From contig NZ_AP022603.1 of assembly GCF_010726955.1 (NCBI RefSeq), positions 62,001 through 126,000 on the forward strand: a stretch of 64,000 bases of DNA, written 5' to 3'. Below the pieces are notes generated by a model. That model was given only the letters and a program-made list of their open reading frames with translations, had not been told where the DNA came from and made no database searches. A program made the position numbers and the translations under genes. The DNA is from Mycolicibacterium fallax. GTDB taxonomy: Bacteria > Actinomycetota > Actinomycetes > Mycobacteriales > Mycobacteriaceae. Below are positions 6,999 to 61,615 of this stretch, one piece after another. Numbering within the stretch: the first letter of the stretch is position 1; every line of letters starts with the position of its first letter.

Positions 6999-7004
6999 GA
7001 GAAT
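6999..7004 (+). promoter_or_regulatory. Half-site of island operator
   Basis: GAGAAT preceded by TT and followed by AGT, as in the perfect site at 10420, but the right half (CCGCCC) does not match. It sits just upstream of the TetR gene starting at 6967. Weak on its own; reported because of the pattern elsewhere. Confidence 0.25.
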
Positions 7005-7039
7005 AGTCCGCCCCGCGGTGCTGCCGGCGGATTTCCCGC

Positions 7040-7873
7040 TCAGTACTGCCCGGCGTCGAGGAACAGGTCCAGGATCGGGTCGTCGCCGCCGCCGTAGGGC
7101 GACAGGTCGGTGCGGCCGGCCTGGGCCAGCACCGCCGAGTCGATGTAGCAGTTGCCGCTGGCCTGTGCCGCCGGCCGGGACAGGATCTCCGCGGCGGCCT
7201 CACCCATGATCTGCGGGCTGCGCGACCGGGCGACCATGTCGTCGTCGCCGGAGGCCAGGTTCGTCACCGCGGCCGTGGCGATGTAGGTCTCCGGCCACAG
7301 GCAGTTCGACGCGATCGGCACGTCGGCGTACTCGCTGGCCCAGCCCAGCGCCAGCAGCGTCATGCCGTACTTGCTCAGCGTGTAGCTCGGGTGCAGTCCC
7401 AGCCAGTACGGGTTCATGTTCAGCGGCGGGGCCAGCGTCAGCACGTGCGCGTTCTGGGACTTGCGCAGGTGCGGGATCGCGGCCCGGGTCAGCAGGAAGG
7501 TGCCGCGGACGTTGATGTCCATCATCAGGTCGAACTGCTTGGCCGAGAGCTGGTCGGTGGGCGCGGTGAAGATCGCGCTGGCGTTGTTGATGCAGGCATC
7601 GACCCCGCCGAAGGTGTCGACGGCGACCGCGACGGCACGCTCGACGTCCGCCTCGTTGCGGACGTCGCCGACGACGGCGGCCGCGCGGCCGCCGGCCGCC
7701 TCGATCTCGGCGGCCGCGGTGTAGACGGTGCCGGGCAGCTTCGGGTGCGGTTCGGCGGTCTTGGCCAGCAGCACCACGTTGGCGCCCTGGCGGGCGGCGG
7801 ACAGGCCGATCGCCAGGCCGATGCCGCGGCTGGCGCCGGAGATGATCAGGGTGCGGTCCTGCAGTGCCGTCAT
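7040..7873 (-). CDS. SDR-family oxidoreductase (HSDL2-like)
   Basis: A 277-aa short-chain dehydrogenase. The cofactor motif is SGASRGIGLAIG near residues 11-22, followed by NNAS near 95. The catalytic Tyr-x3-Lys is in HPSYTLSKYGMT, and the WPETYIATAAVTNL segment is typical of HSDL2-like SDRs of mycobacteria. It presumably interconverts a hydroxyl and keto group using NAD(P)H on an acyl or alicyclic substrate. The expected catalytic serine position reads LAPPLNM rather than the usual ISSxx, which may alter the active site. Divergent from the LLM gene at 8005. Confidence 0.85.
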   Translation of the reverse strand: MTALQDRTLIISGASRGIGLAIGLSAARQGANVVLLAKTAEPHPKLPGTVYTAAAEIEAAGGRAAAVVGDVRNEADVERAVAVAVDTFGGVDACINNASAIFTAPTDQLSAKQFDLMMDINVRGTFLLTRAAIPHLRKSQNAHVLTLAPPLNMNPYWLGLHPSYTLSKYGMTLLALGWASEYADVPIASNCLWPETYIATAAVTNLASGDDDMVARSRSPQIMGEAAAEILSRPAAQASGNCYIDSAVLAQAGRTDLSPYGGGDDPILDLFLDAGQY

Positions 7874-7924
7874 GGGAGCTCCCGGGAGTCGAAACGCGGC
7901 TGCGGAAGGCGACTCCCGCTAGGC

Positions 7925-7939
7925 GATATTGGCATTCTC
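7925..7939 (+). promoter_or_regulatory. Degenerate island operator
   Basis: A 15-base window reading GATATT-GGC-ATTCTC: the right half is perfect and the left half partial compared with GAGAAT-N3-ATTCTC. It lies in the 131-base divergent region between the SDR (start 7873) and the LLM gene (start 8005), where an operator is expected. Confidence 0.35.
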
Positions 7940-8004
7940 TTTTTCTGCAAGTACGTTATCACCGAGGGTTGTCCGGATCGTCGGGATGAAGGAGTGGGCC
8001 GCCA

Positions 8005-8961
8005 ATGCGCTTGGGTGTGATGATCGGTGCCGAACGCGGGGACATGAACCGCAAGGTCACCAAGTTGCTCGCCGACATCGAGTGGGCCGAGTCCGCGGGG
8101 CTGGACACCGCCTGGATGCCGCAGGTGCCCGACGACTTCGACTGCCTGACCATGGTGTCGCTGATGGGCGGCCGGACCAGCCGCATCGAGCTCGGCACCG
8201 CCGTGGTGCCGCTGCAGGCCCAGCACCCGATCGCCCTTGCCCGGCAAGCACTTTCGGTTCATGCCGGGTCCGGCGGTCGGCTCGCGCTTGGGGTCGGGCC
8301 GTCGCACCACTGGATCATCGAGGACATGCTCGGGCTGCCGTATAAGCGGCCGGCCGGCTACACCCGCGACTACCTGGAGGTGCTCAACGCGGCCATCGCC
8401 GGGCCCGGGCCGGTCGACGTGGAGAACGACACCTTCACCGTGCACAACCCGACCGCGCTGGGCGCCGAGACCAAAATGCCGGTGCTGGTGGCCGCGCTGG
8501 GCCCGGTGATGCTGCAGTTGGCCGGCGAGTTCGCCGACGGCACCGTGCTGTGGATGGCCGACGAGCGCGCGATCGGCGACCACATCGCCCCGAAGATCAA
8601 CAAGGCCGCCGCCGACGCCGGCCGGCCGGCGCCGCGCATCGTGGCCGGCATCCCGGTGTGCCTGTGTGCCAACTCCGAGATCGACGCCGCCAAGCAGCGC
8701 GCCAACCGGATCCTGGCCGAGGCCGAGACCTCGCCGAACTACCAGCGGCTGCTCGACCGCGGCGACGCCCGCGACGTCGGGGACCTGTGCGCGGCCGGCG
8801 ACGAGGAGGCGATCCTGCGCCGGTTCCGGCAGTTCGCCGACGCCGGGGTGACCGACCTGTCGGTGCGGCTGCTGCCGATCGGCGACAACCGCGATGAGCT
8901 GATCGCGTCCAAGTACCGCACCCGCGAGGTGATTGGGGCGCTGGCCGCCGAACTACGCTAG
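8005..8961 (+). CDS. LLM-class F420-dependent oxidoreductase
   Basis: A 318-aa luciferase-like protein, probably F420-dependent. Visible motifs are MRLGVMIGAERGD at the start, SRIELGTAVVPLQAQHPIAL, GGRLALGVGPSHHWI and PVLVAALGPVMLQLAGEFAD. The pattern matches the group of mycobacterial LLM proteins found in catabolic clusters; the reaction is unknown. ATG 8005 has AAGGAG (7989-7994) at good spacing. The next gene, a CoA transferase, starts at the base after this stop codon, so the two are translationally coupled and probably act on the same intermediate. Confidence 0.87.
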   Translation: MRLGVMIGAERGDMNRKVTKLLADIEWAESAGLDTAWMPQVPDDFDCLTMVSLMGGRTSRIELGTAVVPLQAQHPIALARQALSVHAGSGGRLALGVGPSHHWIIEDMLGLPYKRPAGYTRDYLEVLNAAIAGPGPVDVENDTFTVHNPTALGAETKMPVLVAALGPVMLQLAGEFADGTVLWMADERAIGDHIAPKINKAAADAGRPAPRIVAGIPVCLCANSEIDAAKQRANRILAEAETSPNYQRLLDRGDARDVGDLCAAGDEEAILRRFRQFADAGVTDLSVRLLPIGDNRDELIASKYRTREVIGALAAELR

Positions 8962-10023
8962 GTGGCCGTGACGAACGGTTCCCCGCAGGCCGGTCCGCTG
9001 GCCGGCATCAAGGTGATCGAGGTCGGCTCGGTGCTGGCCGGGCCGTACGCCACGCTCATGCTGGCCGATCTGGGCGCCGAGGTCACCAAGATCGAGCCGC
9101 CGGCCGGCGACATCTCCCGTCAGGTCTCCGACAGCTACTTCGCCAGCATCAACCGCGGCAAACGATCGGTGGTGTTGGAGCTCGACACCGCGGCGGGGCA
9201 GCGCCGGCTCGGCGAGCTGGTCGCCGAATCGGATGCCCTGCTGGTCAATATGAAGCCCTCGGCGATCCACCGGTTCGGGTTGACCTACCAGGCGCTGCGG
9301 CGGCACAACGAGAAGATCGTCTGCGTGGCGCTGACCGGTTTCGGGTTGCACGGCGGTGACCATCCGGCGTTCGACCACATCGTGCAGGCCGCCACCGGGG
9401 TCGCCGCGATGACCGGCGATCCCGGCGGCCCGCCGACGCTGCCCGGCTACACCTCGGTCGACAACTCCACCGGGCTCACCGCCGCGCTGGGCCTGCTGGC
9501 GCAGATCATCGCCGGGCGCGGCGGGCAGCTCGACGTCAGCATGCGCGACGTGATGCTCTCCCAGCTCAACTACCACGCCGCGGCCTACCTCAACGACGGC
9601 GTGCACCCGCAGCGGCTGCCCAACGGGGCGCACAAGTTCTACGTGCCGGCCCAGCTCTTCGACACCGCGGCGGGGTACCTCGCGCTGTTCATCACCTACG
9701 ACGGGTTCTGGCGGGCGTTTGCCGCGGAGGCCGGGCTGTCGGGTTTTGCCACCATGGCCGAACGGGTCGCCAACCGGGAGGCGGTGCTGGCGGCGGTGTC
9801 CGCGGCGCTGGCGACCGACACCGCGAGCAATTGGGAGACTCGGCTCACCGCGCGCGGGATTCCGGCGGCCGCGGTGCGCACGCTGCCCGAGGCCCTGGAC
9901 CGCAACCCGGACAGCGTGATCACCGCCGGGCCGTACCGGCTGGTCGGTTGCCCGATCCGGATCGACGGTCACACCCCGGATTACCGGCCCGCGCCGGCGC
10001 TGGGCGCCAATCAGCAGTCGTAG
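8962..10023 (+). CDS. CaiB/BaiF-family CoA transferase
   Basis: A 353-aa class III CoA transferase, moving CoA between carboxylic acids. It has the N-terminal GIKVIEVGSVLAGPYATLML, the family hallmark ADLGAEVTKIEPP, and INRGKRSVVLEL. The segment FDHIVQAATGVAAMTGDPGG and then GYTSVDNSTGL contains the likely catalytic Asp (VDN). Slightly shorter than the usual 380-400 aa. Starts at GTG 8962 immediately after the LLM stop. Its 3' end overlaps the convergent ferredoxin gene by 13 bases. Confidence 0.88.
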   Translation: MAVTNGSPQAGPLAGIKVIEVGSVLAGPYATLMLADLGAEVTKIEPPAGDISRQVSDSYFASINRGKRSVVLELDTAAGQRRLGELVAESDALLVNMKPSAIHRFGLTYQALRRHNEKIVCVALTGFGLHGGDHPAFDHIVQAATGVAAMTGDPGGPPTLPGYTSVDNSTGLTAALGLLAQIIAGRGGQLDVSMRDVMLSQLNYHAAAYLNDGVHPQRLPNGAHKFYVPAQLFDTAAGYLALFITYDGFWRAFAAEAGLSGFATMAERVANREAVLAAVSAALATDTASNWETRLTARGIPAAAVRTLPEALDRNPDSVITAGPYRLVGCPIRIDGHTPDYRPAPALGANQQS

Positions 10024-10334
10024 TCGACCTCGACCGAGCAGTCCGGAACGCCCTGGCAGGTCAGCACGTAGCCCTCCTCGACCTCGTCGTCATCGAGGGC
10101 GTCGTTCACCCGCATGGTCGCCGTCCCGCTGGACAGCTTGGCCATGCAGGTGCCGCAGTTGCCTGCCTCGCAGGAGAACGGCGGGGTCAGCCCGGCGCGG
10201 CGGGCCGACTCCAGGATGGTCTCGCCCGGTTGCGCGGTGATGGTGGCGTGCCGACCATCGAGGTGGACGGTCACCTCCGGCCGCTCCGCGGTGCTGCCGG
10301 CCGTTGCGGTGTCGGCGGACGCCGGTGAAGTCAT
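10011..10334 (-). CDS. [2Fe-2S] ferredoxin, plant type
   Basis: A 107-aa soluble ferredoxin carrying electrons to an oxygenase. Cluster ligands fit Cys55, Cys60, Cys63 (CEAGNCGTC) and Cys93 (LTCQG). The fold resembles the C-terminal ferredoxin domain of phthalate-dioxygenase-type reductases such as KshB, here as a stand-alone protein without FAD or NADH domains. ATG 10334 has GGAGAGG upstream; further in-frame starts exist upstream but lack support. Divergent from the acyl-CoA synthetase with a perfect island operator (10420-10434) between them. A reductase partner is not adjacent; the Rieske oxygenases of the window are candidate acceptors. Confidence 0.88.
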   Translation of the reverse strand: MTSPASADTATAGSTAERPEVTVHLDGRHATITAQPGETILESARRAGLTPPFSCEAGNCGTCMAKLSSGTATMRVNDALDDDEVEEGYVLTCQGVPDCSVEVDYDC

Positions 10335-10419
10335 GGGACTCTTACCTCTCCAAACGGTGTCGGCAATGGCCACCTCACGCAGCGTGGCAATCACTATGGT
10401 AGGTGTATTCTACCGCAAC

Positions 10420-10434
10420 GAGAATAGTATTCTC
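10420..10434 (+). promoter_or_regulatory. Island operator, perfect copy
   Basis: GAGAAT-AGT-ATTCTC, a perfect 15-base palindrome with a 3-base spacer. It lies in the 137-base divergent region between the ferredoxin (start 10334) and the acyl-CoA synthetase (start 10472). The same palindrome recurs in front of several other operons in the window. Confidence 0.7.
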
Positions 10435-10471: not shown

Positions 10472-11878
10472 ATGCCCGATCCGGTCGTGCTCGTCGGCCC
10501 GCAGCGGTCCTACCGGCGCACCGAACTCGACGCCGACATCGCCGGACTGGCCGCTGAATTGGCCGAACGCGGCGCCGGACCCGGTCGGCGGGTTGCCCTG
10601 ATGTCGTCGAACCGGCCCGAGTTCGTCGTCGCGCTCTACGCGGTGTGGCGCCTCGGCGCGGCCGTCGTGCTGCTCAGCCCGGCGTGGAAGTCCGGCGAGG
10701 TGCGGCACGCACTCGACCTGACCGGCGCCGACATCGCCGTCGGCGATCATCCGGTGCTGGCCGAGCAGCTGCCGATGCGTCACCTCGACGAACCGATCGC
10801 GGCCGCTCCGCACGCGCCGCCGCCGCCCGCGCCGGACCCCGGCGACGAGGCGGTGCTGGTGTTCAGCTCGGGCACCACCGGCCTGCCCAAGGCGGTCCGG
10901 CACACTCACGGATCGTTCGCCGCCGCGGTCGCGCACTGGCGCACGGTGCTGGCGCTGACCGACCGCGACCGGATGCAGATCGCCACCCCGCCGTCGCACA
11001 TCCTCGGCCTGCTCAACATCGCCACCATGCTCGACGTTGGGGGTTGGCTGCGACTGCACCGCCGCTTCGACATCGACGCGCTGCTGGCCGGTATTGAGAC
11101 CGACCGGATCACCGTCGAGATGGCCGTCGCGCCGATCGCGCTGGCGATCGCCGCGCACCCCGAGCTGGAGCGCTTCGACCTGTCCTCGCTGCGCTACCTG
11201 ATGTGGTGCGCCACCCCGGTCACCGCCGCCGTCGCCGAGACGGTCACCCGCCGCACCGGGGTGTGCTGGCTGACCGCGTACGGCAGCACCGAGCTTCCGG
11301 TGTTGGCCTGCAACGAGATCGGATCGGGCCGGCTGGACACCGTCGGGCGGGCGGCTCCCGGGGTGCGGCTGCGGGCGGTCCGTCCCGACGGGACCGCCGC
11401 CCCGGTCGGCGAGCCGGGCGAGATCTGGGCGGCCGCGGACTCGCTGATGGCCGGCTATCTGCCCGACTCGGCGACCGCCGAGGCGGTCACCGACGGCTGG
11501 TACCACACCGGTGACATCGGTGTGTTCGACGACGGCGGCTGGTTGCAGATCACCGACCGCAGTAAGGAGATGATCAAGGTCCGGGGCTTCCAGGTCGCCC
11601 CGGCCGAGGTGGAGGCCGTGCTGCACGGTCACCCGGCGGTCGCCGACTGCGCGGTCTTCGGAGTGCCCGCGGGTGCCGACGGCGAGCGGGTCATCGCCGC
11701 GGTGTCCCGCGGCGCCGAGGTGTCGGCCGCCGAACTGATCGACCTGGTGGATTCCCGACTGGCCGGCTACAAACGGCCCGCCGAGATCGTGTTCGTCCCC
11801 GAAATACCGCGCCTGCCTTCGGGCAAGGTGCTGCGCCGTGTGCTGAAGGAGCGCCATGGATGTCCGATTGACAAGTGA
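10472..11878 (+). CDS. Acyl-CoA synthetase (AMP-binding, ANL superfamily)
   Basis: A 468-aa ligase that activates a carboxylic acid with ATP and CoA. The adenylate P-loop is VLVFSSGTTGLPKAVRHTH, followed by TAYGSTELPVL (A5-like), GWYHTGDIG with the ribose-binding Asp, and the C-terminal PSGKVLRRVLKE carrying the catalytic lysine. Slightly short for the family, but all core motifs are present. ATG 10472 has a strong GAGGAGGA site (10461-10468). First gene of a tight operon with two acyl-CoA dehydrogenase subunits and a crotonase, which points to activation and beta-oxidation of one substrate. Confidence 0.9.
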   Translation: MPDPVVLVGPQRSYRRTELDADIAGLAAELAERGAGPGRRVALMSSNRPEFVVALYAVWRLGAAVVLLSPAWKSGEVRHALDLTGADIAVGDHPVLAEQLPMRHLDEPIAAAPHAPPPPAPDPGDEAVLVFSSGTTGLPKAVRHTHGSFAAAVAHWRTVLALTDRDRMQIATPPSHILGLLNIATMLDVGGWLRLHRRFDIDALLAGIETDRITVEMAVAPIALAIAAHPELERFDLSSLRYLMWCATPVTAAVAETVTRRTGVCWLTAYGSTELPVLACNEIGSGRLDTVGRAAPGVRLRAVRPDGTAAPVGEPGEIWAAADSLMAGYLPDSATAEAVTDGWYHTGDIGVFDDGGWLQITDRSKEMIKVRGFQVAPAEVEAVLHGHPAVADCAVFGVPAGADGERVIAAVSRGAEVSAAELIDLVDSRLAGYKRPAEIVFVPEIPRLPSGKVLRRVLKERHGCPIDK

Positions 11879-16223: not shown

Positions 16224-16238
16224 TAGAACTACGTTCTC
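16224..16238 (+). promoter_or_regulatory. Degenerate island operator
   Basis: TAGAAC-TAC-GTTCTC matches GAGAAT-N3-ATTCTC at 9 of 12 fixed positions and is itself a good palindrome (AGAAC-TAC-GTTCT). It lies between the aldehyde dehydrogenase start (16100) and the TetR stop (16242). Confidence 0.4.
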
Positions 16239-16241: not shown

Positions 16242-16901
16242 CTAGCTGGCGGCGGCGAATCCCCGGGCGCAGAAGTTCCAGACCTCCTCGGAGGTGATGG
16301 GCTTGATGCCCTCTTCCTCCTCGGTCGGGGCGCTGGACTGGGCGGTGAACATGACGGTCTGCATGGTCATCGCCGCCATCCGGCGGGGATTGACCCCGCC
16401 GCGCAGCCGGCCGGCCGCCTCGGCTTCCTCCATCAGCTCGGTGAACAGCATCAACAGCGGGGCGTGCGCCACCCGGACCTCGGTCGGATGCGAGATCAGC
16501 AGCTGCGGCGCGAAGTCGGTGAACAGTGGCCGCTTGGCGGACGGATCCGGCCGGGACAGCTCGAAAAGCAGCTCGATGGCGACCTTGAGGCGGTCCAGCG
16601 GATCCTCCTGGCCGCCGGTGGCCGCGCGAATCTGGTTGGCCGCCCGACTCAGGGCGTCCTCGAACAGCGCGAGCAGCAGCTCGTGCTTACCGTCGAACTG
16701 CAGGTAGAAGCTGCGCAGCGACTGCCGGGACCGGTCCACGACCTCCTGCACGGTGAAGTCGGTGCTGCCCTTTTCGGTGATGATCGCCTGGGCCGCGTCG
16801 AGGAAACGCTGCACCCGCTGGGCGGCGCGCAGCTTGGCCGTCTTGATCGACCGTTCGACGGCGCGCTGCTTCCAGGCGGGTTCTTCGCTGGGGCTGCTCA
16901 C
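16242..16901 (-). CDS. TetR-family regulator, candidate controller of the island
   Basis: A 219-aa TetR protein. The helix-turn-helix is near residues 48-80 (DFTVQEVVDRSRQSLRSFYL, then QFDGKHELLLALF), preceded by a basic N-terminal stretch with KTAKLRAAQRVQRFLDAAQ. The ligand domain is large and Met-rich. GTG start at 16901. Its promoter region (16902-17076) is shared with a divergent acyl-CoA dehydrogenase operon and contains a perfect island palindrome (17024-17038). That arrangement is the classic one for an autoregulated TetR repressor, so it is the best candidate for binding the repeated operator. This assignment is inference. Confidence 0.88.
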   Translation of the reverse strand: MSSPSEEPAWKQRAVERSIKTAKLRAAQRVQRFLDAAQAIITEKGSTDFTVQEVVDRSRQSLRSFYLQFDGKHELLLALFEDALSRAANQIRAATGGQEDPLDRLKVAIELLFELSRPDPSAKRPLFTDFAPQLLISHPTEVRVAHAPLLMLFTELMEEAEAAGRLRGGVNPRRMAAMTMQTVMFTAQSSAPTEEEEGIKPITSEEVWNFCARGFAAAS

Positions 16902-17023: not shown

Positions 17024-17038
17024 GAGAATGCTATTCTC
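17024..17038 (+). promoter_or_regulatory. Island operator, perfect copy
   Basis: GAGAAT-GCT-ATTCTC, identical base for base to the copy at 42896-42910. Lies between the TetR gene (start 16901) and the acyl-CoA dehydrogenase operon (start 17077). Confidence 0.7.
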
Positions 17039-19336: not shown

Positions 19337-20146
19337 CTAGAGTTCGACGAGCCGCGGCGCCGAACCGCGGGCGCGCAGTCCGCCGCCGGCCCGCCGGGTC
19401 AGCTCGCGGGAGCTGCCCAGCAGCCCGTCGAGCACCAGCGCCCGCTTGACGTGCACGTGCAGATCGTGCTCGTCGGTGAAGCCGATCCCGCCGAGCACCT
19501 GCTGGCAGTGCCGGGCCGCCGTCAGCGCCGCCTTGCCCGCGGCCGCCTTGGCCAGCAGCGCGGTCAGGTCGGGACTTTCGACGGCCGGTACACCGAGGGT
19601 GGCCTCGGCGCCCTCGATGGCCACCAGGGCCTCGGCGAGCTTGTGCCGCACCGCCTGAAACGATGCGATCGGCTTGCCGAACTGCACCCGGTCCAGCGCG
19701 TGCCGCTGCGCCAACTCGAGCATGGCGCGCGCCGTGCCGACCAGCCACCAGCCCACCGCGCGGCGCGCCTCGCCCAGGCGCATCGTCTCGCCGTCGGGCA
19801 CCTCGCGCAGCGGCAGCCCGCCGAGCGTCGGATTGTCATCGCGCGCGGTGCGGGTCCAGATCACCCAGCGGCCGCCGGCGTAGGGCAGCGGGGGAGTGCC
19901 GCCGGGCAGCCCACCGATGGTCTCCAGCACCACGTCGTTGAGGATCGAGGCGTGCGCGCCGGTCTCCCCGAGCAGCCGGAAGACCAGCGGTATCGCCATA
20001 TCCGGTGCGTCGGAGAGCATTTCGGCCCAGCCCAGCTCGGCCAGTGCCTCATCGAGTTCGGCCCCCGACGTCGTAGACATGGTCTTGCGCAGGGTGTCTT
20101 CCAGCATTGCCAGCGATGCGGCGTCCAGTTCGGCGGACATGGTCAT
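19337..20146 (-). CDS. Acyl-CoA dehydrogenase subunit (short, FadE-like)
   Basis: A 269-aa reduced acyl-CoA dehydrogenase. The C-terminal part shows LDRVQFGKPIASFQAVRHKL and CQQVLGGIGFTDEHDLHVHV; the N-terminal domain is truncated. ATG 20146 overlaps the stop of the upstream dehydrogenase gene (ATGA), with ATG 20140 as an alternative. This coupling suggests a heteromer with the product of 20143-21264. It is the distal gene of a minus-strand operon that may begin at 24603 or 25222. Confidence 0.87.
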   Translation of the reverse strand: MTMSAELDAASLAMLEDTLRKTMSTTSGAELDEALAELGWAEMLSDAPDMAIPLVFRLLGETGAHASILNDVVLETIGGLPGGTPPLPYAGGRWVIWTRTARDDNPTLGGLPLREVPDGETMRLGEARRAVGWWLVGTARAMLELAQRHALDRVQFGKPIASFQAVRHKLAEALVAIEGAEATLGVPAVESPDLTALLAKAAAGKAALTAARHCQQVLGGIGFTDEHDLHVHVKRALVLDGLLGSSRELTRRAGGGLRARGSAPRLVEL

Positions 20147-21264
20147 TCCTTCCCGAGGTCGAGCAGCCGACGGGCGATGATGTTGCGCTGCACCTCGGCG
20201 GTGCCGCCGTAGATGGTCGCCGCGCGGGAGTACAGGTACTCGGTCCGCCAGGGGTCGTCCTCGAGTTCGACGACACCGGGCAGCAGATCGCGCGCGGTGT
20301 CGTAGAGCAGTTGTTCGGCGCCGGCCAGCAGCACCTTGTCGATCGAGGTGTCCGGGCCGAGCCGATGGCCCGCGGCCAGCCGGTGCTGGGTGGCCCGGGA
20401 CCGGCAGCGCAGCGTGTGCAGCGCCAGATACACCGCGCCCAGGTCCTGATCGACGGCCGCACCCTGGCGCTTGGCGGCGGCGACCAGCGCGTCGAACCGG
20501 GCATACAGGTAGGCGATGCGCTGCCAGAAGCAGGTGGAGCGCTCATAGGGCAGCAGGTCCATCGCCAACTGCCAGCCGTCGCCGGGCTTGCCGAGCATCC
20601 GGGAGCCGTCGACGACGACGTCGTCGAAGTACACCTCGCAGAACTCGTCGACGCCGTGCATGGTGTGCAGCGGCCGGACCGAGATCCCGGGGGTGTCCAC
20701 ATCGACGAAGAACGCCGTGATGGCCTGGTGGTTCGGGGTGCCGGGATCCCCGGTGCGGGTCAGCAGGATGGCGCGATGCGAGTACTGCGCGAAGCTGGTC
20801 CACACCTTCTGCCCGTTGATCACCCACTGGTCACCGCGCGGGGTGGCCCGGGTGCTCAGCGACGCCAGGTCGCTGCCGGAGCCGGGCTCGGAAAAGCCCT
20901 GGCACCACTGCTCTTCGCCGCTGAGCAGCTTGGGCACCATCTCGGCGGCCAATTCGGGGCTGGCGTAGTCGATCATCGTCGGTGCCAGCACCTCGAGCAT
21001 CGAATACGGCCCGGGCTCGGCCAGCCGCCGGCCGACCACCTCCTCCCCGACGATGGCGCGCAGCATGTCCGGACCGCCGAGCCCGCCGGCGTGCTCGGGC
21101 CAGCCGTAGCGGCTCCAGTCGGCGTCGTAGAGGGCGCGCTGCACTCGGGCGAACTGCCGCATCTGCGCCGCCAGGCTGTGATCGTCGGGCGGGGTCAGAT
21201 CGTTGGCGTCGAGCCAGCCGCGCAGCCGGGTGCGAAACTCGGCGGGGTCGTGCAGTTCGTTCAT
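20143..21264 (-). CDS. Acyl-CoA dehydrogenase subunit (full length, FadE-like)
   Basis: A 373-aa acyl-CoA dehydrogenase with WCQGFSEPGSGSDLASLSTR, VINGQKVWTSFAQYSHRAIL, CEVYFDDVVVDGSRMLG and the C-terminal YSRAATIYGGTAEVQRNIIA. ATG 21264 overlaps the upstream SnoaL-like gene's stop by 4 bases (ATGA). Paired with the short subunit downstream. Confidence 0.9.
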   Translation of the reverse strand: MNELHDPAEFRTRLRGWLDANDLTPPDDHSLAAQMRQFARVQRALYDADWSRYGWPEHAGGLGGPDMLRAIVGEEVVGRRLAEPGPYSMLEVLAPTMIDYASPELAAEMVPKLLSGEEQWCQGFSEPGSGSDLASLSTRATPRGDQWVINGQKVWTSFAQYSHRAILLTRTGDPGTPNHQAITAFFVDVDTPGISVRPLHTMHGVDEFCEVYFDDVVVDGSRMLGKPGDGWQLAMDLLPYERSTCFWQRIAYLYARFDALVAAAKRQGAAVDQDLGAVYLALHTLRCRSRATQHRLAAGHRLGPDTSIDKVLLAGAEQLLYDTARDLLPGVVELEDDPWRTEYLYSRAATIYGGTAEVQRNIIARRLLDLGKE

Positions 21265-21707
21265 CCGGCTTCGGGCCTGCCGATCGCGTGCGGCCGGCCG
21301 TGGTCATGATCGCCGCTGCGCCGAATGAACGTCATGGCACGGGTTTTCAGCCGCCAGCCGTCCGCGGTGCGCAGGTAGGTGTCGCGGTAGTAACCGATCC
21401 GCATGTCGTGCTTGGAGTGCTCGATGAAGCACAGCGGCTGGGTGCCCGAGGCGCTGTCGGCGCCCTCGTCGAGGTCGACCAGCGCGGTGCCGGTCATGAA
21501 CAGCCCCTTGGGAGCGGCGTCGACGAGCACCGGGAACCGGTTGAGCGTGTAGGTCTCGCCGAACGCGCTGTATGTGCCGTCCGGGGTGAACACGCTGATC
21601 AGGCCGTCGGTGTCGCCCTGGGTGATGGTGACCGCGTACTTGGCCAGCAGTTGCTGGATCTCGACCAGGTCTTCGATGCGGGTGGGTTTGTCAGTCGGCG
21701 TTGTCAT
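21261..21707 (-). CDS. SnoaL/NTF2-like protein
   Basis: A 148-aa protein with the cone-shaped NTF2-like fold: EDLVEIQQLLAKYAVTITQG, then GLISVFTPDGTYSAFGE, and a C-terminal GYYRDTYLRTADGWRLKTRA. Members include polyketide cyclases, isomerases and dehydratases as well as oxygenase small subunits; the role here is not evident. It overlaps the upstream amidohydrolase gene by 17 bases and the downstream dehydrogenase by 4, so it is firmly part of this catabolic operon. Confidence 0.82.
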   Translation of the reverse strand: MTTPTDKPTRIEDLVEIQQLLAKYAVTITQGDTDGLISVFTPDGTYSAFGETYTLNRFPVLVDAAPKGLFMTGTALVDLDEGADSASGTQPLCFIEHSKHDMRIGYYRDTYLRTADGWRLKTRAMTFIRRSGDHDHGRPHAIGRPEAG

Positions 21708-22941
21708 TGCGGAAAACCTTACCGCCTTTCATTACAAAATTAACATTGCGTGTAATGCTGATATCTTCCAGCGGATTGCCCGGCACGGCAATGATGTCGG
21801 CCAGCTGACCCGGCGCCAGGCGGCCCAGATCCGGGGCGTTGATCAGGTCGGCAGCGACCACGGTGGCCGCCCGCAGCACCGCCTCGGCCGGCATGCCCCA
21901 CTCGACCAGGGTGACCAGTTCGTCGGCGTTGCGGCCGTGCGGGATGGCCGGCGCGTCGGTGCCGACGGCGATCTTGACGCCGGCCTCATAGGCCGCCTTG
22001 ATCGAGGTGCGGGCCATCGGGAACATCCGGGCGGCCTTGTCCTGCAGCACCTTCGGTGCTTTGGAGACATCCATCGCCTCGGCCAGCCGGCGGGTGGAGA
22101 CCAGGAACCGGTCGTGCTCGACCATCATCGCGATGGCCTCGTCGTCCATCAGGAAGCCGTGCTCGATGCAGTCGATGCCGCACTCGATGGCGTGCTTGAC
22201 CGCCTCAGCGCCGTGGGTGTGCGCCGCCACCCGCAGCCCGCGCCGGTGCGCCTCGTCGACGATGACGCGCAGTTCCTCGTCCGAATAGTGTTGGGCGCCG
22301 GGCTCACCGGTCAGTGACATCACCCCGCCCGAGCAGCACACCTTGATCAGCTGGGCGCCGTGCTTGATCTGGTAGCGGACCGCCTTGCGGATCTCGTCGA
22401 CCCCGTTGGCGATGCCCTCCTCGATGGTCAGCTCCAGCACGCCGGGCATGAACGCGGCGAACATGGTGGGGTCCAGGTGACCGCCGGTGGGGGTGATGGC
22501 GTGACCGGCCGGGATGATCCGCGGGCCCTCGATCCAGCCGGCGTCGATGGCCTTGGCCAGCGCCACGTCGAGCAGGTAGCCGCCGGTCTTGACGAACAAC
22601 CCCAGGTTGCGCACGGTGGTGAAGCCGGCCCGCAGGGTGCGCCGGGCGTTGCCGACCGCGCGCAGCATCCGGGTCGGCGGATCGTCCTGCACCTGGGACA
22701 GCCCGGGGTTCTCCCCGCGGCCGCCCATCAGCAGGTTGACCTCCATGTCCATCAGGCCGGGCAGCAGGATCGCCTCGCCGAGGTCGATGACCGGGGCGTC
22801 CGGATCCACCTCGGCGACGATCCGGTCGTCCTCGACGGCGACGATGCCGGGGCGAATGATCGCCCCGGCATCGACGTCGAGCAGTCCGGCCGCCTTGAGG
22901 GTCAGTCGGGTTGGGCCGCTGGCTCGCTTGGCGTCGGACAC
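21691..22941 (-). CDS. Amidohydrolase-family protein with altered metal site
   Basis: A 416-aa protein of the imidazolonepropionase/prolidase-like amidohydrolase group. Recognisable parts are the N-terminal beta-sandwich, LLPGLMDMEVNL at strand 1, QLIKVCCSGGV, RVAAHTHGAEAVKHAI, CIEHGFLMDD, AVGTDAPAIPHG and the C-terminal LGRLAPGQLADIIAV. The strand-1 HxH metal ligands are replaced by Glu67-Val-Asn69, while the later His and Asp ligands remain. It may bind a single metal or act in another way. GTG 22941. Lies between a Rieske oxygenase unit and the acyl-CoA dehydrogenase pair in one minus-strand operon. Confidence 0.83.
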   Translation of the reverse strand: MSDAKRASGPTRLTLKAAGLLDVDAGAIIRPGIVAVEDDRIVAEVDPDAPVIDLGEAILLPGLMDMEVNLLMGGRGENPGLSQVQDDPPTRMLRAVGNARRTLRAGFTTVRNLGLFVKTGGYLLDVALAKAIDAGWIEGPRIIPAGHAITPTGGHLDPTMFAAFMPGVLELTIEEGIANGVDEIRKAVRYQIKHGAQLIKVCCSGGVMSLTGEPGAQHYSDEELRVIVDEAHRRGLRVAAHTHGAEAVKHAIECGIDCIEHGFLMDDEAIAMMVEHDRFLVSTRRLAEAMDVSKAPKVLQDKAARMFPMARTSIKAAYEAGVKIAVGTDAPAIPHGRNADELVTLVEWGMPAEAVLRAATVVAADLINAPDLGRLAPGQLADIIAVPGNPLEDISITRNVNFVMKGGKVFRNDNAD

Positions 22942-22943
22942 CG

Positions 22944-23282
22944 TTAAACCACCGGCTCCCGGGTGATCTCAACCCAGGCCGCGCCGCTGTCGAGCACGCG
23001 CGGCTGCTTCCACACCTCTACCGGGAAACTGACCATCACCACAGACTGCATCAGGTGCATCAGATTCTTGGCGTCTTCGGGCATGTCGTGCAGCGGGAAC
23101 CGGGCGTCCAGGTAGACCATGACGTCCTCGAGGCGGGCGGTGCCCGCGTCGTAGAGCTCCTGCATCTGCGCCATGGTGGAGTCCAGCCGCTTGGCGTAGC
23201 GCTCCGGCTCGGTGGCCAGGCACCAGTCGGTGAACCGCTCCAGGTCGGCGAACTCGGTGGGCAGCATCGTGGTCTCAGACAT
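22944..23282 (-). CDS. Small conserved-looking protein coupled to a Rieske oxygenase
   Basis: A 112-aa protein that I do not recognise. It is predicted to be soluble and mainly helical, with PTEFADLERFTDWCLATEPE at the start and VEVWKQPRVLDSGAAWVEIT at the end, and has no cofactor motif. ATG 23282 lies within the last codons of the Rieske alpha-subunit gene (8-base overlap), so translation is coupled to it. The gene order suggests an accessory or small subunit of that oxygenase, but this rests on context only. Confidence 0.7.
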   Translation of the reverse strand: MSETTMLPTEFADLERFTDWCLATEPERYAKRLDSTMAQMQELYDAGTARLEDVMVYLDARFPLHDMPEDAKNLMHLMQSVVMVSFPVEVWKQPRVLDSGAAWVEITREPVV

Positions 23283-24603
23283 GAGTGGTGTCCTTTTCAC
23301 ACTGGGTGGGCGCGGCGACGCCATTTTCGGCCAGCTCCGCCTTGTAGTTGTCGACGTACTTGTGCGCGGTGTGGTGCAGGTGGCGCAGCAGCACCTCCTG
23401 ATCGCAGAGCAGGAAGTCGGTGACCGCCCGGGTGCCGATCTGGGTCTGGGTGGCCTCCAGGGTGTTGGCGTCCTGCAGGGCGTACTCCTTGAACGTCACC
23501 GCGGCCAGTTCCTGGGACAGTCGCTGCCGGGTGTTCTTCGGCGGCACGAAGTACAGGTTGGCCTCGAAGATGTGGCTGTCCACCCCGGTCGGCCAGTAGT
23601 TGTAGGTCAGGTACCAGCCCGGAACCCACAGCAGCAGGGTGAAGTTCGGGAAGAACTCGAAGCTGTCCTGGCCCCAGGTGGGCTGGCGAGCCGGGTTGAC
23701 CGCCGGCGGCAGCTCGTCGGGCAGGATGCCCTCGATGTCGGGTCGGTCCCACGGACCGAACAGGCCGCTGTGCAGGATCCGCTCGATCGGCTTGACCATG
23801 CTCAGGTCCTTGGGCGGGGACATCCCGCCCCAAGACGAGATCATCGAGTGATCGCCCTTGATGTCGTAGTGCAGCGCCTCGAAGCCGACCTTGGCCAGCT
23901 TGGCGGCCTCCTCCGGGGTCGCCTGCTTCATGTGCAGGATCGGTGCGTGGTAGAACTCGACGAACGCGTCGATGAACAGCTTCCAGTTCGCCTTGATCTC
24001 GGCCTTGTAGCTGTAGACCTCGGTCATCTCGTGGAACGGGTAGCCTTCCAGGCCCTTGCCGAACTCGCCCATGGACTCGATCAGCGGCTTGGCGTCGTCG
24101 TCGAAGTTGACGAAGATGAAGCCCTCCCAGACCTCGCAGCGGACCGACACCAGCGGGTATTCGGTCTTGTCGACGTCGAAGAACTCGTCCTCCTGCTGGA
24201 TGAAGGTCAGGTCACCGTTGAGCGCGTAGCGCCAGGCGTGGTACTTGCAGGTGAACTGGCGGCAGCTGCCCGAGACCTCCTCGCCGGGGTAGTCGTTCCA
24301 GACCAGCTTGTTGCCGCGGTGCCGGCACAGGTTGTAGAACGCCCGGATGACACCGTCCTTGTCCTTGTTGACGATGATCGAGGTGCCCTTGCCGACCGAC
24401 GGCATCTCGCGGGTGAAGTAGCTGCCGGCCTTGGGCAGCCGCTCCACCCGGCCGACGTGCAGCCAGGTGCGACGGAAGATGGCCTGCTGCTCCAGTTTCC
24501 AGTGCTCCGGGTCAATGGAGTCGGTGTAGTCGACCGGTCCTGTGCCCAGCTCGGGCCAGTTCTCGGTCCAGCTACCCGCGGCCGGTTTCGGGAAATGCGC
24601 CAT
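23275..24603 (-). CDS. Rieske non-haem iron oxygenase, alpha subunit
   Basis: A 442-aa aromatic-ring-hydroxylating-type oxygenase. The Rieske cluster ligands are Cys93-x-His95 (LCRHRGN) and Cys119-x2-His122 (TCKYHAW). The mononuclear iron site follows with Asp212, His219 and His224 in DAFVEFYHAPILH. It would use O2 and electrons from a ferredoxin to hydroxylate a ring or alkyl position. ATG 24603 is chosen because the upstream part of the frame is low-complexity and overlaps the previous gene. No classical beta-subunit gene follows; the coupled 112-aa protein takes that place. Confidence 0.9.
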   Translation of the reverse strand: MAHFPKPAAGSWTENWPELGTGPVDYTDSIDPEHWKLEQQAIFRRTWLHVGRVERLPKAGSYFTREMPSVGKGTSIIVNKDKDGVIRAFYNLCRHRGNKLVWNDYPGEEVSGSCRQFTCKYHAWRYALNGDLTFIQQEDEFFDVDKTEYPLVSVRCEVWEGFIFVNFDDDAKPLIESMGEFGKGLEGYPFHEMTEVYSYKAEIKANWKLFIDAFVEFYHAPILHMKQATPEEAAKLAKVGFEALHYDIKGDHSMISSWGGMSPPKDLSMVKPIERILHSGLFGPWDRPDIEGILPDELPPAVNPARQPTWGQDSFEFFPNFTLLLWVPGWYLTYNYWPTGVDSHIFEANLYFVPPKNTRQRLSQELAAVTFKEYALQDANTLEATQTQIGTRAVTDFLLCDQEVLLRHLHHTAHKYVDNYKAELAENGVAAPTQCEKDTTHV

Positions 24604-24607
24604 GGGG

Positions 24608-25222
24608 TTACCTGTCCTCTCGGTGTTCGGGTGTTGGCTGTTGGGGTGTTGACTGTTGGGGATCTGCGGGGGAGTCGAGTTGCACGCCAAAGGTGTTGAA
24701 GGCCGTCGCCAGGGTGCGGTAGGTGCCCGTGGTGAAGATCAGGTCCATCCGCTGCCGGTCGTCGAGGTGCTCACCCAGGGCGGTCCAGGTGCTCTCGGAC
24801 AGCCGGGCGGTGTCCTCCAGCTCGTCGACCGCGTCGACGATGAGCTGGTCGACCGGATCGGGGGCCGAGCCGGCTTGGATGCCGGCGATGTCGGCATCGG
24901 TGAGGCCGACCATCTTGCCCATGGTGACGTGGTGGTGCCATTCGTAGGGCGCCCGGCAGTGCTGGGCGACGCGCAGGATGGCCACCTCGCGCAGCCGCGC
25001 GGGCAGCGGGGAGTTGAACAGCAGGTGCACGTTGAGCGCCAGGAAGGCCTTGGTCAGATCCGGGTGGTGGACCATGGTCGCCAGGCCGTTGCCGGCGGCC
25101 TCGGGGTTGCGGCGGGCCCGCGGCAGCATTCCGCGCAGGGCGCTGTCCACCTCCTCGCCCCACTGCGCGGCGGGCAGCGGGGGCAGCAGGATCGCCGGGG
25201 CCGGCGACGACGTCGTTTCCAC
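24608..25222 (-). CDS. Carboxymuconolactone decarboxylase (AhpD-like) family protein
   Basis: A 204-aa all-helical protein of the CMD/AhpD family. The diagnostic helix is REVAILRVAQHCRAPYEWHH with the single Cys and His of the CMD type rather than the CxxC of AhpD peroxidases. A decarboxylase or hydrolase-like role on a ring-cleavage product is plausible. The C-terminus is Gln/Pro-rich with a 15-base tandem repeat. GTG 25222 is preferred over a TTG at 25237 because GAGGAGA lies just before it. First gene of a minus-strand operon, 16 bases after a perfect extended operator. Confidence 0.83.
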   Translation of the reverse strand: METTSSPAPAILLPPLPAAQWGEEVDSALRGMLPRARRNPEAAGNGLATMVHHPDLTKAFLALNVHLLFNSPLPARLREVAILRVAQHCRAPYEWHHHVTMGKMVGLTDADIAGIQAGSAPDPVDQLIVDAVDELEDTARLSESTWTALGEHLDDRQRMDLIFTTGTYRTLATAFNTFGVQLDSPADPQQSTPQQPTPEHREDR

Positions 25223-25237
25223 GACTTCTCCTCTCAA

Positions 25238-25260
25238 CTATGAGAATCATATTCTCATAG
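25238..25260. promoter_or_regulatory. Island operator, extended perfect copy
   Basis: CTATGAGAAT-CAT-ATTCTCATAG: 10-base arms with a 3-base spacer, the longest and most perfect copy of the island palindrome. It lies directly before the operon led by the carboxymuconolactone-decarboxylase-like gene and at the shared divergent region with the dehydrogenase at 25486. Confidence 0.75.
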
Positions 25261-26664: not shown

Positions 26665-26683
26665 CGGCCGGCACCGGGAGAAT

Positions 26684-29049: not shown

Positions 29050-29070
29050 ACCAGCGTCCGAGGAGACCCC

Positions 29071-42815: not shown

Positions 42816-42830
42816 AAGAATCTTATTCTC
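42816..42830 (-). promoter_or_regulatory. Island operator, near-perfect copy
   Basis: AAGAAT-CTT-ATTCTC, 11 of 12 fixed bases. Nearest to the minus-strand amidohydrolase operon (start 42766). Another perfect copy lies 66 bases further at 42896, so each divergent operon has its own site. Confidence 0.65.
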
Positions 42831-42895: not shown

Positions 42896-42910
42896 GAGAA
42901 TGCTATTCTC
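42896..42910 (+). promoter_or_regulatory. Island operator, perfect copy
   Basis: GAGAAT-GCT-ATTCTC, identical to the copy at 17024. It lies 63 bases before the start of the acyl-CoA dehydrogenase at 42974. Confidence 0.7.
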
Positions 42911-42973
42911 CATGTTCGCGCGGGCCGCCGGAGGTGGTCGGCCACCGATTGTCTGCCGCCGGAAGGGACGCGA

Positions 42974-44146
42974 ATGCAACTGAGTTTCGATGCCGACGTG
43001 GAGGCGTTCCGGGCCGAGTTTGTCGATTTTCTGGAGCGCAACCTGCCGCCGGAGGCCGAGACCGCCGAACGGTCCCGGACCTGCTCGCACATCCCGGAAT
43101 GGGCCCGGCGTTGGCAGCGACTGCAGTTCGACGCCGGCTGGCTGCTGCCCGGCAACCCGCCGGAGTTCGGCGGTCGCAACGCCTCGGTGGTGCAGCAGTA
43201 CGTGCACCGCGAGGAGCTGTCGCGGCGGCGGATTTACCACACCTACAACCCGCAGGGCGTGGGCATCGTGGCCGCCTCCATCCTGTCGTTCGGCACCGAC
43301 GAGCAGAAGCAGCGCTGGGCGGTGCCCATCCTGCGCGCGGAGCTGACCGCCTCGGTCGGCATGAGCGAGCCCGGCGCGGGCTCGGATCTGGCCTCGCTGC
43401 GCACCCGCGCCGACGACGCCGGGGACCACTTCGTGGTCAACGGGCAGAAGGTGTGGACCTCCGGCGCCCACGACGCCGACGTGCTGCTGACCTTCGTGCG
43501 CACCGATCAGGACGCCCCCAAGCACAAGGGCATCAGCGTGCTGCTGATCCCGACCGAGTCCGAGGGTCTGATGCGCCGGCCGTTCCCGACGGTCTGCCAC
43601 CAGGACGACGTCGACTTCAACGAGGTGTTCTTCACCGACGTGCGGGTGCCCAAGGAGAACCTGGTCGGCCCGCAGGGCGGCGGCTGGCGGGTGGCCAACG
43701 GTGCGCTGGGCCACGAGCGCACCATGATGTGGATGCAGTACGCCGACCGGCTGCACAACCTGATCACCGACTTCGATCCGCGCACCGAACTGGACCGCGA
43801 CAAGTACGCCACGCTGCTGATGGACCACCAGGCGCTGCGGCTGATCGGCTCCGGCGCCATCGCCAAGGCCGACCGCGGCGAGGTGGACCTGCCGGCCATC
43901 TCGGTGCTCAAGGTGCTTGGCTCGGAGGCCGAGCGCGACGCCACCGAGGCCGCCCTGGAGGCCGCCGGCATCGACGGGCTGCGGCACCCCGCCTCGACGG
44001 CGCCGTACGCGCCCTATGACCTGGACTACCTGTCGGCCAGCTGGATGGAACGGTACTTCCGCAGCTTCGCCGGCACCATCGCCGGCGGTACCTCGGAGAT
44101 TCAGCGCAACATCATCGCCCGCGGGCTCGGGCTGCCGCAGCGCTGA
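42974..44146 (+). CDS. Acyl-CoA dehydrogenase (paralogue of the gene at 18091)
   Basis: A 390-aa acyl-CoA dehydrogenase. It has GMSEPGAGSDLASLRTR, VNGQKVWTSGAHDADV, NEVFFTDVRVPKENLVG and the ending GGTSEIQRNIIARGLGLPQR. It is alike over its whole length to the product of 18091, but has no short partner gene beside it. ATG 42974 follows GGAAGGGA. Its 3' end overlaps the convergent E1 dehydrogenase gene by 35 bases. Controlled by the perfect operator at 42896. Confidence 0.9.
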   Translation: MQLSFDADVEAFRAEFVDFLERNLPPEAETAERSRTCSHIPEWARRWQRLQFDAGWLLPGNPPEFGGRNASVVQQYVHREELSRRRIYHTYNPQGVGIVAASILSFGTDEQKQRWAVPILRAELTASVGMSEPGAGSDLASLRTRADDAGDHFVVNGQKVWTSGAHDADVLLTFVRTDQDAPKHKGISVLLIPTESEGLMRRPFPTVCHQDDVDFNEVFFTDVRVPKENLVGPQGGGWRVANGALGHERTMMWMQYADRLHNLITDFDPRTELDRDKYATLLMDHQALRLIGSGAIAKADRGEVDLPAISVLKVLGSEAERDATEAALEAAGIDGLRHPASTAPYAPYDLDYLSASWMERYFRSFAGTIAGGTSEIQRNIIARGLGLPQR

Positions 44147-46328: not shown

Positions 46329-47894
<1,566 letters not shown>

Positions 47895-60207: not shown

Positions 60208-60266
60208 GGCGTTGTCTCCTTGTTGTGCTGAACGATCCGACGGCCCGATCTGCGGGCCGGTCGGCG

Positions 60267-60473: not shown

Positions 60474-60509
60474 GCCGAATCATGCTGTGGTGCCGAATTA
60501 TGCTGCGGT
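60474..60509. repeat. Two 18-base direct repeats
   Basis: GCCGAATCATGCTGTGGT (60474-60491) is followed directly by GCCGAATTATGCTGCGGT (60492-60509), differing at two bases. They lie in the 67-base gap between the SDR and ferredoxin genes. No function is evident; a duplicated protein-binding site is possible. Confidence 0.55.
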
Positions 60510-60525
60510 GCAGCGGGTTTGTGGA

Positions 60526-61386
60526 TCAGACGTGGTAGTCGTACCACTTCAGGTAGCCGCCTGCGTCGACGCGCAGCTGCATGCCGGTGACGAAGCGGGA
60601 CTCATCGGAGGCCAGCCACAGCACGGCGTTGCTGATGTCCTCGGGGTCGACGTAGGGCACCCGCATGGCCTGCTGGACGGCGAAGACCGGCTCGGCGTCG
60701 GCGCGGGTCGGGTTCTCCAGATCCGGGCGGAACGACTTGTACATCGGCGGGCTCTGCAGCATGTCGGTGTTGCAGTTGGTCGGGTGCACCACGTTGGCGC
60801 GGATCCCGCGCACGGCCAGCTCGGTGGCCAGGTAGTGCACGTACTCGGAGATCATCCGCTTGGACACCATGTAGCCCATGCCGCCCGGGTCGCCGCCGGG
60901 GTTCGGCTTGTTGTGCGCGTCCATCAGCGCGGCCGCGGACGCGGTGGCGATGATCGACGCGCCCTCGTTGAGATGGGGGAGCGCGACCTGGATGGCATTG
61001 ATGGTGCCGATCAGGTTGGTGTTGATCCCGTCGGTCCAGGCCTGCATCGCCGGTGCACCCTTCATGGCGGCGACGCCGGCCTGGGCCACCACGATGTCGA
61101 GCTTGCCGAACTGCGCCAGGCCTGCCTCCAGGGCGGCCTGGAGCTGGGCGGCCTCGCGGACGTCGGCCTTCACCGCGACGATGCCGCGACCGGTCTTCTC
61201 CACCAGCTTGGCGGTCTCATCGAGATCCTCCTGGCTGGCCATCGGGTAGCCGATGGTGTCGATGTTCTCGCAGATGTCGACGGCGATGATGTCGGCGCCC
61301 TCTTCGGCCAGCCGCAATGCGTGACTGCGGCCCTGGCCGCGGCCCGCGCCGGTGATGAATGCGACCTTGCCCTGAACGCGTCCCAC
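60526..61386 (-). CDS. Mycofactocin-type SDR oxidoreductase
   Basis: A 286-aa short-chain dehydrogenase. It begins GKVAFITGAGRGQGRSHALR, then LAEEGADIIAVDICENI with the extended insertion between the first strands and AAALMDAHNKPNPGGDPGGM with catalytic Tyr-x3-Lys in GYMVSKRM. This pattern matches the SDR subfamily whose NAD is held tightly and regenerated by the redox cofactor mycofactocin. It would oxidise an alcohol. First gene of an operon with ferredoxin and P450, 55 bases after a near-perfect island operator. Confidence 0.88.
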   Translation of the reverse strand: MGRVQGKVAFITGAGRGQGRSHALRLAEEGADIIAVDICENIDTIGYPMASQEDLDETAKLVEKTGRGIVAVKADVREAAQLQAALEAGLAQFGKLDIVVAQAGVAAMKGAPAMQAWTDGINTNLIGTINAIQVALPHLNEGASIIATASAAALMDAHNKPNPGGDPGGMGYMVSKRMISEYVHYLATELAVRGIRANVVHPTNCNTDMLQSPPMYKSFRPDLENPTRADAEPVFAVQQAMRVPYVDPEDISNAVLWLASDESRFVTGMQLRVDAGGYLKWYDYHV

Positions 61387-61441
61387 GGTCTTCCTTTCGC
61401 CCGGGCCCAGCGGCCCGGTCAGAATGTCGATTTTCGATTAT

Positions 61442-61456
61442 GAGAATCCTACTCTC
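61442..61456 (-). promoter_or_regulatory. Island operator, near-perfect copy
   Basis: GAGAAT-CCT-ACTCTC, 11 of 12 fixed bases, with TAT before it as in the 25238 copy. Lies before the SDR-ferredoxin-P450 operon (start 61386). Confidence 0.65.
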
Positions 61457-61609
61457 GCGGCGCAACGTGACACAAGGTTTGTGGACTGACAGTCTTGTAA
61501 TGCGCGTTTTCCCATCGCGGACGGCAGGGTGGGCTATCTTGGCAATCCCCGGGACGCCTCGCTCCCGGGCTGGCGTTCTCGACATCGGGCTGTAGGATTC
61601 GCGACGAAT

Positions 61610-61615
61610 GAGAAT
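61610..61615 (+). promoter_or_regulatory. Half-site of island operator
   Basis: GAGAAT preceded by AT and followed by GAC; the right half (GTGTCC) does not match. It is 31 bases before the aldehyde dehydrogenase start at 61646, so may be a weak site for that gene. Confidence 0.25.

Follow-up and report, generated by a model that had tools for sequence, protein, structure and literature searches.

A palindrome, GAGAATNNNATTCTC, recurs in the promoter gaps of catabolic operons in a 64,000-nucleotide stretch of the Mycolicibacterium fallax chromosome (contig NZ_AP022603.1, positions 62,001 to 126,000; hereafter the window). We conclude that it is very probably the operator of an autoregulated TetR-family repressor encoded at 16242-16901, which, as read from the sequence, would act at about ten catabolic promoters in the manner of KstR and KstR2, with an operator of its own. 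The observations that carry this reading are the positions of the sites, their conservation, their co-occurrence with the regulator gene, and one promoter footprint. Plain positions count from the first base of the window; C1 marks positions on the chromosome, a single contig of 4,156,821 bp in which the window is C1:62001-126000.

Distribution of the palindrome

At up to two mismatches, a scan of both strands of the window (70% GC) finds seven matches against 0.54 expected, with a maximum of three in 100 shuffles. Four are perfect (10420, 17024, 25242, and 42896), two carry one mismatch (42816 and 61442), and one carries two (7925). The initial annotation, made from the sequence alone, had listed the same four perfect and two near-perfect copies, giving as 25238 the start of a version with 10-base arms (25238-25260) around the perfect core at 25242-25256, and had described the copies at 17024 and 42896 as identical; they are indeed the same 15-mer. 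It had also placed all six best copies in promoter gaps, and all six are intergenic after the mechanical gene calls are revised at two places. The site at 10420 lies inside a called open reading frame (ORF) with a GTG start at 10403, for which the likely start is an ATG at 10472. Those at 42816 and 42896 lie inside a called plus-strand ORF, 41792-44146, which we replace by an Amidohydro_2 gene on the minus strand (41675-42766) and an ORF on the plus strand (42934-44019).

Across the 4.16-Mb chromosome, 18 places match at up to one mismatch, and the reversed-pattern control matches none. Ten of them cluster in one 100-kb island, C1:72420-171906, and the island and its sites continue past the end of the window, to C1:171906. 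A matrix built from 153 site sequences of other genomes and applied to 164 kb of the island gives 13 hits at a cut-off of at least 8 bits, where 50 column-shuffled symmetric matrices give a mean of 1.02 and a maximum of 3. A genome-wide scan and a matrix set against random expectation had been proposed earlier as a check; enrichment is found, and it is concentrated in the island. The weaker copies named at the outset fare unevenly: 16224 is recovered by the matrix (8.5 bits), whereas 7925, 25413, and the half-sites at 6999 and 61610 are all absent from its hits and were over-called.

The other eight chromosomal places comprise six cores of a dispersed palindrome (C1:554209, 1134938, 2363840, 2609525, 3014643, and 3693431), one place inside a called ORF (C1:3054151), and one promoter-like site (C1:444391) that precedes a thiolase-like gene, a match below the family cut-off. 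The dispersed palindrome is intergenic, with six copies starting at C1:554174, 1134910, 2363805, 2609497, 3014611, and 3693408 (loci L174-L179); it has outer arms GACGGTGAC...GTCACCGTC and a GAGAA..TTCTC core. Five of the copies are 82-86% alike to the reference copy over 59-79 bp, fragments of 21-40 bp lie nearby, and the whole looks like an element of the REP/MITE type. Its core at C1:2363840, one of six perfect hits genome-wide, is probably not a regulon site.

The candidate regulator

TetR 16242 belongs to the TetR family by its PF00440 (TetR_N) domain (30.8 bits; cut-off 24). Its predicted model (pLDDT 84.6) is all-helical and its structural matches are of the TetR type; among the 50 matches listed (E 7e-7 to 6e-5), the nearest folds are EthR2, YvdT, and FadR-type TetR proteins, some of them solved with acyl-CoA. 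In an alignment of 22 sequences, the DNA-binding half is almost invariant and the ligand half more variable.

We examined the promoter of the regulator itself in 80 loci, the best of 404 confirmed stretches fetched by the TetR protein, in which the regulator is 79-90% identical; by their titles, nearly all are from Mycobacterium or Mycolicibacterium, with three from Nocardia and one from a metagenome bin labelled Acidobacteria. Saprophytic laboratory strains that carry the orthologue include Mycolicibacterium neoaurum ATCC 25795 (L131) and M. vaccae (L085). All 80 loci have a site with at most one mismatch in the 300 bp upstream of the orthologue, most commonly at position -137. The divergent promoter of the regulator thus carries an operator that is conserved among orthologues, as expected of autoregulation. 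A site of this quality also occurs near the 3' end of the TetR gene in 41 of the 80 loci.

Presence of the regulator follows presence of the palindrome. In a first sample of 61 genomes, the 37 from the genus, taken as Mycobacterium in the wide sense, divide into 29 with both and 8 with neither; the 24 from outside the genus have no TetR 16242, and one of them (G053) has a single motif. In a larger set of 198 genus genomes, a TetR 16242 orthologue (E<=1e-60) occurs in 163 and agrees with the perfect motif in 192: 160 have both, 32 neither, 3 only the TetR, and 3 only the motif (Fisher p 4.9e-30, uncorrected for shared ancestry; 15 of the TetR-negative genomes are scored so by absence among the listed positives). 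The genomes with only the TetR are G080, which has a one-mismatch site at the expected place, 138 bp upstream of the gene; G113, which has an eroded operator there; and G202. Separately, two matches to TetR 16242 (E<=1e-60) are found in ten of the 198 genomes (G016, G022, G093, G097, G110, G125, G154, G174, G198, and G205).

The initial annotation had named two candidate regulators, TetR 16242 and TetR 6356. The former is upheld by its 80 promoters and by co-occurrence; the latter is missing from 13 of the 29 motif-bearing genus genomes of the first sample and is rejected. It is found at E<=1e-40 in 16 of the 61 genomes, and its other matches are 46-54% identical.

Conservation of the sites before proposed target genes

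The 80 TetR-fetched loci were not chosen for the motif, whereas 40 further loci were fetched by it and are biased towards it; their counts are kept apart. Matches below 50% identity, alignments starting after residue 30, and genes closer than 320 bp to the end of a locus were left out. In the TetR-fetched loci, the site stands before every orthologue of TetR 16242 (80/80), the CMD gene (56/56), the acyl-CoA ligase (15/15), the acyl-CoA dehydrogenase pair (8/8), and the ferredoxin (3/3). In the motif-fetched loci, it precedes the Amidohydro_2 genes at 41675 (5/5) and C1:171943 (5/5) and a hydrolase gene at C1:144220 (2/2). The same operator is therefore conserved before several catabolic operons, as expected of members of one regulon. 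Conservation before orthologues, named earlier as a check, holds in the TetR-fetched loci. Equal abundance in coding regions had been named as grounds for abandoning the idea; none of the 227 sites in these loci falls well inside a coding match, a comparison that covers 0.77 of 1.52 Mb and is confined to genes sharing 50% identity or more with a protein of the island. In the motif-fetched loci, 1 of 48 sites lies inside one.

The motif accompanies the same genes despite differing gene order across relatives. In G012, a relative that keeps the order of the island, sites with at most one mismatch recur at seven promoters: ligase/ferredoxin, TetR/acyl-CoA dehydrogenase, the Rieske row, the amidohydrolases with their paired sites, a second ligase (C1:139149), an APH-family gene (C1:161657), and C1:171943. 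In pairwise alignment with G012, the site forms a conserved block at 5 of the 10 promoters compared, and weakly at 3. Conservation and co-occurrence together strongly support the original suggestion that the palindrome ties scattered catabolic operons into one regulon.

Outside the island, the motif in relatives also precedes genes that, judged by eye, resemble 2-oxoglutarate:ferredoxin oxidoreductase in G034, G020, and G013 and a 3-oxoacid CoA-transferase in G022 (loci L139, L147, L168, and L155, position 2501).

Promoter layout and a model of repression

A set of 81 TetR promoters was reduced to 57 non-redundant ones (<85% identity over 215 bp). In these, the site, whose near-invariance is partly by construction because sites were taken at up to one mismatch, precedes a -10-like hexamer, TACAAT, which is conserved and begins 29-34 bp from the site start; at this spacing the operator would occupy the -35 region of tetR. 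On the opposite strand, the commonest spacers give TATTCT facing the divergent gene. We do not build on an overlap of the operator with a TANNNT -10 element at every promoter, by way of the spacer letters: N7=A or N9=T occurs in 108 of 193 unique, non-independent sites, a count that has no background to set it against. The layout at the tetR promoter, akin to that of KstR, points to repression by occlusion.

We propose that a TetR 16242 dimer would bind the two inverted half-sites. The copy in its own divergent promoter would make it autoregulatory, and the further copies would bring it to about ten catabolic promoters, which with few exceptions lie within the island of about 100 kb. Because the site overlaps predicted promoter elements, the protein would block transcription in the absence of inducer and would be released by an intermediate of the pathway, for which an acyl-CoA thioester is the likeliest candidate; from the predicted fold, an acyl-CoA inducer is plausible.

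Evidence against the model and alternative explanations

Several observations weigh against this reading. G202 has the TetR (E 9e-80) without a perfect site in a search for the perfect motif, and G172, a 93% complete draft, has eight perfect sites with no TetR found; G068 and G094 (the latter 73% complete) each have one site without the TetR. The acyl-CoA dehydrogenase row that begins at 25486 has a site close before its first gene in only 1 of 52 orthologues. In G012, the 7925 copy has no counterpart: no site with at most one mismatch lies near its neighbors, and the 170 bp before the LLM gene do not align to it. The 61442 copy is degenerate there, with two mismatches. TetR 16242 may also activate instead of repress. 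Finally, among the several TetR genes of the island, that at C1:171181-171864 occurs in 28 of 29 motif-bearing and 0 of 8 motif-free genus genomes, a near-equal co-occurrence, so co-occurrence alone cannot single out TetR 16242. This gene sits just before the perfect site at C1:171906, and in G080 a relative of it and TetR 16242 are encoded divergently on either side of a one-mismatch site. We nevertheless consider it improbable that the palindrome is bound by another island TetR, chiefly this one, or serves as a common operator for two of them: no site with up to two mismatches lies in the roughly 500 bp upstream of C1:171181 in this genome or in any of 20 fetched orthologues (from 28 other genomes with a match), the gene was not found in G026, which has both the motif and TetR 16242, and its orthologues are mostly 55-62% identical. 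It is hardly credible that the palindrome is a dispersed repeat or terminator-like element rather than a regulator site. Six of the 18 genome matches at up to one mismatch, one of them perfect, are cores of the dispersed palindrome, and for those six copies the repeat reading stands; the island sites lack the flanks of the repeat, keep their position before given genes, and track gene identity across species.

We regard it as very improbable that the palindrome marks a mycobacterial regulon already described, namely KstR, KstR2, BkaR, or Rv0767c with its "motif X", seen under phytosterol. The KstR operator, TAGAAC(N2)GTTCTA, shares AGAA half-site letters with the palindrome (PMC1995591), and motif X is a palindrome at phytosterol-induced genes without KstR or KstR2 sites, including P450 and SDR genes (PMC6593523). 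The BkaR core, GTTA(N)T(N4)A(N)TAAC, differs (PMC3920632). The KstR spacer is 2 and that of the palindrome 3, and KstR occurs in all 37 genus genomes searched, including the 8 motif-free ones (36 over the cut-off, G007 as a partial match). KstR itself is encoded elsewhere, at C1:3378466; the regulon lacks the KstR protein with its TnnAACnnGTTnnA operator, TetR 16242 scoring 20 bits against a 280-bit cut-off. In the 164-kb island there is no exact KstR2 consensus (AnCAAGnnCTTGnT at zero mismatches) and one loose KstR match. The distribution of KstR and these scans agree with the initial annotation, which had not recognised the motif as KstR or KstR2. It had not recognised it as LexA either; the genes behind the sites look catabolic. 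We take the Rv0767c position to be the one divergent from Rv0768 (aldA). There, at about C1:3559000, a separate TetR with GGACACATGTCC lies beside the Rv0768-equivalog aldehyde dehydrogenase; the surrounding 10 kb hold no GAGAAT-type site at up to three mismatches, and BLAST gives no match between that TetR and TetR 16242. The arrangement of genes next to TetR 16242, compared in five loci, and the Rv0768 locus speak against TetR 16242 itself being the Rv0767c orthologue.

Proposed operators and target operons in the window

The preferred reading, repression by TetR 16242, assigns the following features.

16242..16901, minus: TetR-family regulator, 219 aa, proposed palindrome-binding repressor (TetR_N, conservation, co-occurrence)
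17024..17038: perfect operator between the TetR gene (minus) and the acyl-CoA dehydrogenase pair (plus), autoregulatory by position
16224..16238: weak operator (three mismatches, 8.5 bits) beside the 3' end of the gene for the TetR
17077-18087 and 18091-19269, plus: acyl-CoA dehydrogenase pair; site before the first gene in 8/8
10420..10434: perfect operator in the divergent promoter of the ferredoxin (minus) and the acyl-CoA ligase operon (plus), from scan and conservation
10011..10394, minus: [2Fe-2S] ferredoxin-like protein, divergent target; site before 3/3 orthologues
10472..11878, plus: acyl-CoA ligase with putative ATG start, heading a row of ligase, two acyl-CoA dehydrogenases, and enoyl-CoA hydratase to 14605; site before 15/15
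11856-12761, 12544-13836, and 13838-14605, plus: small and large acyl-CoA dehydrogenase-like proteins and enoyl-CoA hydratase-like protein
25238..25260: operator whose 10-base arms enclose the perfect core 25242-25256; CMD 56/56
19337..25237, minus: CMD (24608), Rieske oxygenase (23275), small protein (22944), amidohydrolase (21691), SnoaL-like protein (21261), and acyl-CoA dehydrogenase pair (20143 and 19337)
25486..30219, plus: divergent row of acyl-CoA dehydrogenase, CaiB CoA-transferase, thiolase, and acyl-CoA dehydrogenase, putatively controlled by the 25242 site
42816..42830: one-mismatch operator, first of a pair; two one-mismatch sites stand at the equivalent place in G012
42896..42910: perfect operator, second of the pair; amidohydrolase 41675 5/5, all in motif-fetched loci
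41675-42766 and 40524-41951, minus: two Amidohydro_2-family proteins, by family search
42934..44019, plus: 361-aa ORF with no Pfam hit, divergent from the amidohydrolases; several relatives have an acyl-CoA dehydrogenase pair here
61442..61456: one-mismatch operator in the divergent promoter of a mycofactocin-type SDR (minus) and an aldehyde dehydrogenase (plus)
60526-61386 and 58846-60270, minus: mycofactocin-coupled SDR and cytochrome P450
61529..64000, plus: aldehyde dehydrogenase and CaiB CoA-transferase, continuing outside the window, then an Mce operon

The row headed by CMD (19337-25237) has the same order in G012, where CMD fell below the match filter. At 44112-48098, a 735-aa fused pyruvate-dehydrogenase-E1-like protein has as its neighbor an L-piperidine-6-carboxylate dehydrogenase (774 bits, cut-off 730).

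Neighboring genes and the possible pathway

The window is followed immediately, behind the 61442 promoter and downstream of its aldehyde dehydrogenase and CaiB genes, by an Mce operon (C1:126542-136083; L018:542-10083) with two MlaE-type permeases and six MlaD/Mce proteins. Core membership of this operon in the regulon is not supported, because a YrbE match (E<=1e-100) also occurs in the motif-free genomes G003, G009, G015, G019, G032, and G035 (some possibly paralogues) and because the 61442 site is degenerate in G012. An NCBIfam scan of ten proteins of loci L018 and L019 at E<=1e-90 returns no match. Farther along, a 406-aa open frame at C1:207627-208370 has two TetR_N domains, the tandem arrangement of an Mce3R-type regulator.

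Behind the Amidohydro_2 gene at C1:171943 comes a gene for a FadD3-family ligase (727.9 bits, cut-off 657). By overall sequence, the C1:171943 protein resembles PtmU3 (E 9e-21), which, like AibH2, is a non-heme diiron hydroxylase within the amidohydrolase superfamily (PMC7782822). Its nearest solved chain is 4dzi, a "putative TIM-barrel metal-dependent hydrolase" (E 2e-80). Taken together, the ligases, paired acyl-CoA dehydrogenases, hydratase, thiolase, CaiB proteins, P450s, SDR, Mce proteins, and PtmU3-like proteins suggest that a large hydrophobic, possibly polycyclic, acid is degraded as CoA esters. We also advance a more tentative reading, in which a further major lipid-catabolic TetR regulon, beside KstR and KstR2 and absent from the papers searched, might control a pathway for a polycyclic isoprenoid- or steroid-like compound. 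The island, with its Mce importer, paired acyl-CoA dehydrogenases, P450s, and Rieske oxygenase, would then include PtmU3-like diiron hydroxylases that act on CoA thioesters, and the repressor would sense a CoA ester of the pathway.

The analysis thus defines, for the proposed regulon, an exact operator, one regulator gene, and a list of member genes; regulator and perfect motif co-occur in 160 of the 198 genus genomes. The inducer of the regulon would reveal which compound is degraded through its acyl-CoA dehydrogenase, Rieske, and amidohydrolase genes, all of them widespread.

Comparison with known regulons

Among the matches listed in open-licence PMC text, we found no report of the motif, its strings in several spellings included, and no paper that by its title concerns such a regulator with the motif. 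A TAC..GTA palindrome described in PMC3388012 is unlike the one here.

Motif X has been tied to the Rv0767c orthologue (PMC6593523) and, as here, a TetR and a palindrome were proposed, in that case from promoters of phytosterol-induced genes (PMC6593523; PMC4482099). The M. fallax chromosome differs in that a TetR other than TetR 16242 occupies the Rv0767c position, its promoter containing GGACACATGTCC. Two perfect copies of this sequence, at C1:3559243 and 3559400 (L208), lie between the Rv0768-equivalog aldehyde dehydrogenase and the divergent TetR, and they are likely the operator of an Rv0767c-type regulator, which fits a published account in which GAC and GTC abound in the sites of Rv0767c (PMC10312376). 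Given this separate TetR and operator and the GAC/GTC-rich sites, we regard the regulon as distinct from the known ones, a comparison that covers the published text for motif X, the nearest of them, and for the 30 TetR motifs of PMC4482099.

BkaR is likewise an autoregulated TetR repressor of neighboring catabolic genes, with other genes and another core (PMC3920632). The KstR regulon is a parallel in its way of working: its TetR is autoregulated, its operator is a short palindrome that overlaps a putative -10, it takes in many lipid-catabolic operons, and it is conserved across mycobacteria; it differs in its operator and in that KstR is present also where the motif studied here is absent (PMC1995591). 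KstR2 is a TetR whose palindrome, 14 bp long and found through the promoters of KstR2 orthologues, stands at divergent promoters close to the regulator gene; its letters and spacing are others, and it has three promoters (PMC3068626), fewer than the about ten of the regulon described here.

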